Part shown: piece by piece, positions 30,484 to 33,324 of the stretch
Layout: each line of letters begins with the position of its first letter
How positions within the stretch are numbered: the stretch's first letter is position 1
Assembly: GCF_900112815.1 (NCBI RefSeq)
Contig: NZ_FOND01000030.1
Coordinates: 1-46,869, forward strand
DNA: 46,869 nucleotides
Direction of reading: 5' to 3'
Source of the DNA: Blastococcus tunisiensis
GTDB lineage: Bacteria > Actinomycetota > Actinomycetes > Mycobacteriales > Geodermatophilaceae
Notes under the pieces: generated by a model
The model's database searches: none
Seen by the model: the letters and a program-made list of their open reading frames with translations, nothing else
What the model was told of the DNA's origin: nothing
Made by a program: the position numbers and the translations under genes

Positions 30484-32028
30484 ATGATCAGGACCTTTCC
30501 CGACTCCGTCGACGTGGCCATCGTCGGCAGCGGGCCGTGCGGGGCGGCGTACGCCCGGATCCTCAGCGAGCGGTGCCCCTCGGCGACGGTCGCGACCTTC
30601 GAGGTCGGACCGCTGCTGGCCGATCCGCCGGGCGTGCACGTCAAGAACATCGCCGACCCGGCCGAGCGGGCCCGCGCGCAGCGGCTCTCGGAGGGGCCGG
30701 CGCCGTCGGCCGATGCCACGTCGACCGACACGATGGACGGCTACGCGGACGAGGCGCCGCGGCTGGTCCGCCCCGGCACCTTCCTGCTCGCCGACGGCTA
30801 CCGGCAGGACGGCGAGGACGGCCTGCCCGGCGCGGCCATGTCGAGCAACGTCGGCGGCATGGGCGCCCACTGGACCGGGGCGTGCCCGCGCCCCGGCGGG
30901 AGCGAGCGCATCGGCTTCGTGGACGGGCTCGACGACCTGCTGGCCGTGGGGGAGCGGCTGCTGAACGTCGCGACGCACGCGTTCGACGACGCACCGTTCG
31001 CCGACGAGGTCAGGAAACGCCTGAGCGGCGCACTCGACGACGGCCGGGACGACGACCGCCGGGTCGCACCGATGCCGCTGGCCGTGATCCGCCACGAGGA
31101 CGGGCGGGTGACCTGGTCCGGGTCCGACGTCGTCTTCGGCGAGCCGACGCGCGCCAACCCGAACTTCACGCTCGTGCCCGAGGCCCTGGTCACGGAGGTG
31201 ATCGTCGTGGACGGCCGGGCCGGGGGTGTGCGCGTGCGGGATCAGCGGACGGGTGACGAGCACGTCGTCCGTGCACGCTTCGTCGTCGTCGCGGCCGACG
31301 CCCTGCGCACGCCGCAGCTGCTGTGGGCGTCGGGGGTCCGGCCCCGTGCACTCGGCCGGTACCTGAACGACCAGCCGCAGACCGTCTACGCCGTCCGGCT
31401 GCGCGACGTGACGCCGGGGGCCGAGACGCAGGTCGACCCCCGCGACGAGCCGGAGATCGTGCCGCAGAGCGGCGTCAGCTGGGTGCCCTTCACCGACGAG
31501 GAACCCTTCCACGGGCAGGTCATGCAGCTGGACGCCTCACCGGTGCCGCTGGCCGACGACGACGAGCCCACTCCCGGGACGATCGTCGGGCTCGGCTGGT
31601 TCTGCGCCAAGGACGTCCAGGAATCCGACCGCGTCGAGTTCGACGAGGCCGACGTCGACCCCTACGGCATGCCGGCGATGCGCATCCACTACCGGCTGAC
31701 CGACGCCGACCACGCCTCCATCGCCGCGTCCCGCGAGGCGGTCAAGCGGGCGGCGGCCGCCCTGGGCGAGCCGCTGGACGACCGGGAGCCGCTGACCTTC
31801 CCACCGGGCGCATCCCTGCACTACCAGGGCACCGTCCGGATGGGGGAGGCCGACGACGGGACGTCGGTCTGCTCGCCGACCTCCCAGGTGTGGGACGTCG
31901 ACGGCCTCTACGTCGCCGGCAACGGCGTCATCCCCACCGCCATCGCCTGCAACCCGACCCTCACGTCCGTCGCGCTCGCCGTCGGCGGGGCCCGCGACAT
32001 CGCCGACCGCCTGACCGAGAGGAACTGA
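30484..32028 (+). CDS. Pyranose-oxidase-like GMC oxidoreductase, probable glycoside 3-oxidase
   Basis: The 514-residue FAD enzyme has the dinucleotide motif VGSGPCG (14-20). The block VGGMGAHWTGACP (123-135) contains His129, at the position of the histidine that carries covalent FAD in pyranose oxidases. The C-terminal active site reads SLHYQGTVRMG (catalytic His446) and IPTAIACNPTLTSVALAVGG (Asn490). Their spacing matches pyranose 2-oxidase. The closest functional analogy I know is CarA, the FAD-dependent C-glycoside 3-oxidase of Microbacterium. Its immediate partner here is the fused deglycosidase, as expected for the same pathway. No signal peptide is visible, so it acts in the cytoplasm. 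Oxidation at C2 of free sugars is the alternative. Confidence 0.88.
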   Translation: MIRTFPDSVDVAIVGSGPCGAAYARILSERCPSATVATFEVGPLLADPPGVHVKNIADPAERARAQRLSEGPAPSADATSTDTMDGYADEAPRLVRPGTFLLADGYRQDGEDGLPGAAMSSNVGGMGAHWTGACPRPGGSERIGFVDGLDDLLAVGERLLNVATHAFDDAPFADEVRKRLSGALDDGRDDDRRVAPMPLAVIRHEDGRVTWSGSDVVFGEPTRANPNFTLVPEALVTEVIVVDGRAGGVRVRDQRTGDEHVVRARFVVVAADALRTPQLLWASGVRPRALGRYLNDQPQTVYAVRLRDVTPGAETQVDPRDEPEIVPQSGVSWVPFTDEEPFHGQVMQLDASPVPLADDDEPTPGTIVGLGWFCAKDVQESDRVEFDEADVDPYGMPAMRIHYRLTDADHASIAASREAVKRAAAALGEPLDDREPLTFPPGASLHYQGTVRMGEADDGTSVCSPTSQVWDVDGLYVAGNGVIPTAIACNPTLTSVALAVGGARDIADRLTERN

Positions 32029-32031
32029 GCC

Positions 32032-33324
32032 ATGCTCGACCGCAACGTGATCCAGGGCCGGGGCTTCCGGAACGTCGTCGACGGTGGCCGGGTGACCGGC
32101 TTCCAGCTCCAGCTGCGCCAGCCCAACTACCGGGGCACCGCCGGCAGCCTGCTCGACGGCGTCGAGGTGGTCGTCGACGGCGAACGCGTCCCCGACCACG
32201 TGCCGCTGTGGACGATCCAGGGCCGAACTCTCACCCTCGACGAGCTCCGCGCCTCGACCGACGTCAGGTGGCAGCTCGATGAGCCCGTCGTCATCACCGT
32301 GCCGAAGCCCGGCGGGCTCACCACGGGGGTGCACCGGATCGAGGTGGTCGTGCACCTGCGTCGGCCCTACTTCCCGCCCGCGGTGTCCCGGACGACGTTC
32401 ACCGCGGCCGCGACAGGCGTCATCGTGCCGCCGGCGCCGGGGGGCGGATTGAAGTTCGGTGTCTCCACCTACAGCTACACCGGTGACATCTACACGCTGA
32501 TGACCCTCGAGGACGTGCTGGCCGATGTCGCGGACATGGGTGCCACCGGCATCGAGATCCTCGGCGAGGGCAACATCCCGAACTACCCCGAGCCCGATGC
32601 CGCGTGGGTCGACACCTGGCACGGCCTGCTGGAGACGTACGGCCTGACCGCCACGAACTACGGGTCCTGGGTGGACACCGAGATGTGGCGGGACCGGAGC
32701 CTCACCGCCGAGGAGGGCGCCGCGCAGATCCGGCAGGACCTGCGCCTGGCCAAGGAGCTCGGGTTCAGCTCGGTGCGGCCGAAGTTCGGTGTCGTCTCCT
32801 GGGACCTGGAGCCCCATCCCATCTGGCAGGAGGCGGTCGAGCGGTCCCTCGACCTGGCCGCGGAACTCGACGTCGTCATCTGCCCGGAGATCCACGCGCC
32901 GACCCCGATCAAGCACCCGGTCACCCAGGCCTACGTCGACTTCATCGAGAAGAGCGGCACCGAGCACTTCAAGCTGCTCGTCGACACCGGGATCTTCAAC
33001 ACCGCACCGGTCCTCGAGCTGTCCGAGGAGATCGAGGTGGAGGACGGCGAGATCCCCATGCACCTGCGTCCGCTTGCCGTGCCGATGTCGGACCTCGTCG
33101 AGGTGCTGCCGCACGTGCACTTCATCCAGGCGAAGTTCGCCGAGGTCGACGACGACCTGCACGACCTGCACGTCCCCTGGGCCGAGATCATCACGACCCT
33201 GCAGGACAACGGCTGGTCAGGCTGGCTGTCCAGCGAGTACGAGGGACGGCGGGACGCCTACCGCGGAGCGGACCAGGTCCGCCGGCAGCACGCGCTGATC
33301 CGCTCTCTCGCGGCCCGCCGGTGA
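32032..33324 (+). CDS. Fused C-glycoside deglycosidase: beta-type domain plus TIM-barrel alpha-type domain
   Basis: The protein has 430 residues in two parts. Residues 1-130 (RGFRNVVDGGRVTGFQ, PNYRGTAGSLLDG, DVRWQLDEPVVITVPKPGGL) resemble CarC/DgpC, the small beta subunit (DUF6379) of C-glycoside deglycosidases. A short Pro/Gly linker (131-139) leads to a sugar-phosphate-isomerase/epimerase TIM barrel (140-430), the alpha-subunit fold of CarB/DgpB. Likely metal and catalytic residues are Glu286 and His288 in CPEIHAP, Asp318 in LLVDTGIF, His363 and Lys368, and Glu402 in SSEYEG. Known enzymes are two-gene heterodimers that break the C-C bond of 3-oxo-C-glycosides; here both halves are one chain. 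It lies 3 bases after the 3-oxidase gene. Action on 3-oxo O-glycosides is an alternative. Confidence 0.85.
   Translation: MLDRNVIQGRGFRNVVDGGRVTGFQLQLRQPNYRGTAGSLLDGVEVVVDGERVPDHVPLWTIQGRTLTLDELRASTDVRWQLDEPVVITVPKPGGLTTGVHRIEVVVHLRRPYFPPAVSRTTFTAAATGVIVPPAPGGGLKFGVSTYSYTGDIYTLMTLEDVLADVADMGATGIEILGEGNIPNYPEPDAAWVDTWHGLLETYGLTATNYGSWVDTEMWRDRSLTAEEGAAQIRQDLRLAKELGFSSVRPKFGVVSWDLEPHPIWQEAVERSLDLAAELDVVICPEIHAPTPIKHPVTQAYVDFIEKSGTEHFKLLVDTGIFNTAPVLELSEEIEVEDGEIPMHLRPLAVPMSDLVEVLPHVHFIQAKFAEVDDDLHDLHVPWAEIITTLQDNGWSGWLSSEYEGRRDAYRGADQVRRQHALIRSLAARR

Follow-up and report, generated by a model that had tools for sequence, protein, structure and literature searches.

A predicted single-chain C-glycoside deglycosidase of Blastococcus tunisiensis and the origin of its subunit fusion

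The fused gene and its product

C-glycoside deglycosidases (CGDs) cleave the carbon-carbon bond between a sugar and its aglycone, which ordinary glycoside hydrolases do not. The stretch of DNA analyzed here, referred to as the window, comprises 46,869 nucleotides (nt) of Blastococcus tunisiensis (contig NZ_FOND01000030.1) and contains, on its forward strand, a gene at 32032..33324 for a predicted single-chain CGD of 430 residues, in which a beta domain is followed by an alpha domain. The open reading frame (ORF) begins with ATG at 32032 and ends with TGA at 33322-33324, the stop codon being included in the coordinates. Its frame is intact, and the G+C fraction at third codon positions is 0.95. 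Only 3 nt separate its ATG from the stop codon of an upstream oxidase gene (30484..32028, forward strand), and a Shine-Dalgarno-like GAGAGGAA, read from the sequence, is found 5' of the fused gene at 32017..32024 on the same strand.

The beta domain (CGDB, PF19906) occupies residues 2-113 (32035..32370, forward strand) and is recognized by Pfam with 128 bits against a cut-off of 27.6 (E 1.8e-37); a profile search of the genome recovers CGDB on the same span. The alpha domain, a xylose-isomerase-like TIM barrel, is assigned from Pfam and from its active-site residues to residues 139-430 (32446..33321, forward strand), where AP_endonuc_2 (PF01261) matches residues 164-424 with 65.5 bits (cut-off 31.1). 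When the two halves are scanned apart, each passes the cut-off of its own Pfam family only. A scan of the fused protein against NCBIfam returned no family. The linker VPPAPGGGL, residues 132-140 (32425..32451, forward strand), is positioned between strands 120-131 and 141-145 of the predicted structure, and the mean predicted local distance difference test score (pLDDT) of residues 131-140 is 88.

The best sequence match in the PDB is the single 435-residue chain of 8qrz_A/8un2, which aligns with residues 1-429 (E 1.4e-138). It is followed by DfgA, an alpha subunit (E 3.1e-61), and then by the beta subunit DfgB (E 3.3e-18). The model of the whole chain superposes on 8QRZ with 2.2 Å over 422 residues. 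When residues 1-140 are searched on their own, this half of the protein does match the CGD beta family: it hits seven beta-subunit sequences with solved structures, ranging from DfgB (E 3.4e-19) to AgCarC2 (E 0.0011), as well as the N-terminal part of 8qrz.

The ORF, the Pfam domains and the PDB matches confirm the single-chain beta-alpha fusion that had been proposed at this position in the original prediction, made from the DNA letters. The 8qrz match, the domains, the model and the match of the upstream oxidase also support its description as a natural CGD fusion beside a 3-oxidase-like gene. The likeness to two subunits stands, but the names given to them do not: 'CarC/DgpC' for the small beta subunit and 'CarB/DgpB' for the alpha subunit mix the two subunits, because the dgp cluster has its alpha subunit in DgpC and its beta subunit in DgpB (PMC8563793; this paper, like PMC10646112 and PMC12724307 below, was available in part).

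The search of the whole genome found one CGD, without a second match, and alpha and beta are not on separate polypeptides. The possibility that translation of a separate alpha chain starts internally, at the TTG codon 140 after a G-rich stretch, was considered and rejected, as CTG stands there in a Klenkia relative (L002).

Distribution and origin of the fusion

One scan of a genome collection returned 32 loci, 22 of them fused (L002-L022, L033) and 10 split in the order beta-alpha (L023-L032). The fused loci are from Actinomycetota (21) and from Marinomonas (L033). Since 22 further loci show the same fused architecture, at 52-87% identity, a sequencing error does not account for the single frame. 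When the full profile was run against the phylum sample, 4 of 396 genomes matched, the window's own included, and the CGD family is therefore rare across the phylum. CGDB is found in 5 of the 394 genomes of the class sample and in 17 of the 112 genomes of the family sample, each count including the window's own genome; 14 of these 17 have a fused copy of the window's kind among the loci fetched. In another family sample (f39, probably Microbacteriaceae), E values of 1e-20 or better were obtained for 17 of 299 genomes. Within the window's own family, genome G499 (loci L052 and L067) has eight matches to CGDB, of which two or more belong to fused genes like that of the window. There is also a group of split CGDs in the reverse order, alpha then beta, with the motif HIQAKF or HVQAKF (L009:1-1547, L010:1-1550, L012:2-1521, L064-L066 and others).

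The relationship between the fused and split forms was analyzed with two domain trees, from both of which identical rows were removed beforehand (12 in the case of the smaller, 43-row tree). The tree of the combined beta and alpha columns contains 61 distinct rows, 37 fused and 24 split, with 8QRZ and DfgA counted and alpha domains that do not span the profile left out. In this tree the clade of the window enzyme consists of 24 fused rows (support 100/99), and its sister consists of 13 split rows (join 99/93). Outside these two groups are 13 fused rows together with 8QRZ (100/100), and beyond them there are split rows only. The 43-row tree agrees with this arrangement.

Such a branching order can be reached by two fusions or by one fusion and one fission, and the number of steps is equal, two changes each. 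The junction of the split genes favors two separate fusions. Of the 23 distinct split rows, 22 have an alpha start codon that overlaps the stop codon of beta by 4 nt (ATGA, GTGA or TTGA). Three of the 22, L037, L104 and L119, also offer alternative starts in frame; in L126 the alpha start is 5 nt downstream of the beta stop, without overlap. Because the same 4-nt overlap is found at the same place in the sister clade and in the outgroups, all of them split, a single fusion of both fused clades of this subfamily, with the split sister clade resulting from a later fission, would require the fission to recreate the overlap. This history is the less likely one, even though it costs no additional step. 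An approximately unbiased (AU) test rejects the grouping of all fused rows, with p values of 0.041, 0.035 and 0.035 for three data sets that overlap; four long rows were left out of the third. This evidence against a single fused clade is moderate, and the fused group was named after the tree had been seen.

A third fused lineage is formed by ORFs of about 500 residues with a long linker, which are similar to AgCGD2. Six such ORFs (L018:7259-8770, L019:3950-5467, L020:3347-4864, L021:7306-8805, L041:1090-2937 and L043:346-1833) make up a separate clade in a quick 87-row tree of alpha domains. This tree, in which the chosen outgroup does not fall on one side of a branch and long branches meet in three places, was used solely for the separate placement of the third lineage. 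Both Pfam domains are present in all three of the divergent ORFs scanned (L018, L019, L021), and the one compared with the PDB (L018, 7259-8770) has AgCarB2 as its best match (7dnm_A, 425 bits). In L018, L021, L041 and L043 the divergent fused gene directly follows an 8QRZ-like fused gene.

Taken together, these observations make it probable that the CGD subunits were fused at least three separate times: 1) in the Geodermatophilaceae/Streptomyces clade, to which the window enzyme belongs; 2) in the Microbacteriaceae clade of the Microbacterium testaceum enzyme (8QRZ); 3) in the AgCGD2-like Microbacteriaceae lineage. In that case the window enzyme would have become a one-chain CGD by convergence, outside the solved one-chain lineage, and its near split relatives would offer a natural test of fusing the lid subunit to the barrel.

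The fused copy of Marinomonas spartinae (Pseudomonadota; L033:6001-7284) is found, on a long branch, inside the otherwise actinobacterial fused clade. This position suggests transfer between phyla.

Active site, gene neighborhood and predicted function

The metal ligands of AgCGD2 are Glu147, Asp179, His269, Lys271 and Glu305, and its base, His149, is supported by Glu307 (PMC8563793). In the window protein the ligand positions hold Glu286, Asp318, Gln366, Lys368 and Glu402, and those of the catalytic pair hold His288 and Glu404. Both the base and the supporting residue are thus present, and four of the five metal-ligand positions are identical. The place of His269 is taken by Gln366 (codon 33127-33129), an equivalence derived from alignments with chains carrying HAK or HGK there, not from superposition. 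A set of 107 alpha domains, from which those not spanning the profile were excluded, was reduced to 85 unique ones. The seven active-site letters of these domains read EHDQKEE in 54 and EHDHKEE in 31, and no other combination occurs. The six other positions are therefore invariant, and Gln occurs at the variable position in both fused and split domains. All 23 fused sequences of one alignment (A1) have Gln here, and so does 8QRZ. Since 8QRZ is a CGD by its deposited title, a ligand of the His269 type is not strict for the CGD family.

The product of the upstream gene is a GMC oxidoreductase, closely related to chains 7dve (699 bits) and 7qf8 (692 bits), of which the latter is presumably the glycoside 3-oxidase PsG3Ox. 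The genome has one full-length copy of this oxidase, the sole other match being a short 29-bit stretch. In L008-L012, five of the 12 fused loci with an oxidase homolog directly upstream, that neighbor is only about 45-47% identical to the window's oxidase. PsG3Ox and its CGD-containing cluster have been described (PMC10646112).

By combining these features, it is possible to propose how the enzyme would work. The upstream FAD oxidase would oxidize C3 of the glucosyl group, as its relatives suggest, and so supply the 3-oxo substrate. The TIM-barrel alpha domain would hold a divalent metal via Glu286, Asp318, Lys368 and Glu402, with Gln366 as the putative fifth ligand. His288, assisted by Glu404, would act as the base that allows the carbon-carbon bond between sugar and aglycone to break. 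Beta is the substrate-binding subunit in known CGDs (PMC8563793), and the N-terminal beta domain may serve as a lid over the mouth of the barrel, closing in cis and aiding aglycone binding. The fusion would unite two proteins that relatives make from overlapping adjacent genes, so that both would always be made 1:1.

The window protein is very probably a one-chain, metal-dependent CGD. The domains, the residues, the predicted fold, the gene order and the split relatives with their overlapping junction are seen directly; the activity, the substrate and the metal follow from them by comparison. Its role is probably to split sugars off plant compounds. EuCGD, the closest two-gene relative, acts on C6 compounds (PMC8563793); as an identity of 36-38% is too low for transfer, no C6 or C8 substrate class is claimed for the window enzyme. 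Nor did any result point to the different substrate scope that the original prediction had considered possible for the fused form.

Several points weigh against this assignment. The ligand His269 of AgCGD2 is replaced by Gln366, a replacement common to the near relatives and 8QRZ, and changing the counterpart of this histidine to alanine dramatically cut the activity of PuCGD and MiCGD (PMC8563793). The model has regions of low confidence: pLDDT is below 50 for residues 34-37 and averages 57 and 58 in blocks 31-40 and 331-340. Finally, the natural substrate could be 3-oxo O-glycosides, because the surrounding cluster contains genes for O-glycoside hydrolases (GH106, GH43).

This apparent glycoside-use cluster extends from 22623 to 42884. 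The gene following the fused gene, GH35/42-like with DUF5597, overlaps it by 4 nt if its start is the GTG at 33321. The other members include a ROK protein, an SBP_bac_5 dipeptide-type ABC transporter, two Gfo/Idh/MocA oxidoreductases, GH43, a BD-FAE-like esterase, MFS transporters and a GH106 rhamnosidase. The cluster appears to be a gene set for decorated plant glycosides.

The glycoside hydrolase genes and the two Gfo/Idh/MocA oxidoreductases suggest that O-glycosides are used too, and the TIM-barrel matches of the fold search include 3-keto-glucoside 4-epimerase and ketose 3-epimerases. Nevertheless, it is unlikely that the main substrates of the fused enzyme are 3-oxo O-glycosides or another 3-keto sugar, converted by eliminase, hydratase or epimerase chemistry. 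The nearest solved relative, by a wide margin, bears the title of C-glucosyl deglycosidase, both the CGDB domain and the catalytic His/Glu residues have been retained, and oxidized O-glycosides are reported to deglycosylate without an enzyme (PMC12724307). That the fused gene has lost its function or is an unstable remnant, as its single copy in the genome might hint, is hardly credible, given that the window gene and the 22 fused relatives from one scan all have an open frame, that 123 columns are invariant across 23 sequences, and that an oxidase homolog is directly upstream (≤50 nt) in 12 of the 22 fused and all 10 split loci.

Comparison with known deglycosidases

The statement of the original prediction that characterized enzymes are heterodimers from two genes does not hold in general, as 8QRZ and 8UN2 are solved structures of a one-chain CGD. 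Because of these structures the fused architecture as such is no longer surprising. What is new is that the window enzyme is in a fused clade separate from that of the solved one-chain CGD and has close split relatives. The two fused clades, the split sister with its ancestral-looking overlap and the AgCGD2-like fused lineage together permit a direct comparison of fused and split forms. Expression of the one-chain form, in which the subunit ratio is fixed, should be simpler than that of a complex of two subunits.

The literature search, whose coverage mostly excluded subscription papers, gave no paper on fused CGDs among the matches listed. A direct search for '8QRZ' and '8UN2' returned no papers; with subscription papers mostly uncovered, 8QRZ may still be published. 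The word 'fused' is absent from the main text of PMC8563793, PMC12724307 and PMC10807413, and occurs once in PMC12141560, about other enzymes.

The M. testaceum C-glucosyl deglycosidase (8QRZ, 8UN2; identity from the deposited titles) is, like the window enzyme, one chain with beta preceding alpha, and the match is full-length. The two are about 50% identical. Their linker sequences differ, and the M. testaceum enzyme belongs to the other fused clade; the group that branches between the two clades is the split sister of the window's.

The split CGDs of L023-L032, from Arthrobacter, Paenarthrobacter, Amycolatopsis, some Streptomyces and a Microbacterium, form this sister clade. They have the same order of beta and alpha behind an oxidase homolog and the same active-site letters as the window enzyme. 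Unlike it, they are encoded by two genes overlapping by 4 nt.

EuCGD (DfgA-DfgB; 7BVS, 7DRE) is the closest two-gene CGD with a structure. The alpha domains are 36-38% identical, and DfgB matches the beta domain with E 3.4e-19 in the search with the N-terminal 140 residues. EuCGD consists of two proteins in a reported alpha4beta4 complex (PMC8563793), whereas the window enzyme is one chain, and its metal site has His where the window enzyme has Gln.

The other two-gene CGDs compared are AgCGD2, PuCGD (DgpB-DgpC), the Deinococcus aerius CGD (8QVC, 8UMC) and MiCGD (CarB-CarC), for the last of which no PDB row was seen in the comparisons. They have both domains and the catalytic residues in common with the window enzyme, but are made as two proteins, have His as a metal ligand and, where listed, are 19-32% identical to it over alpha.
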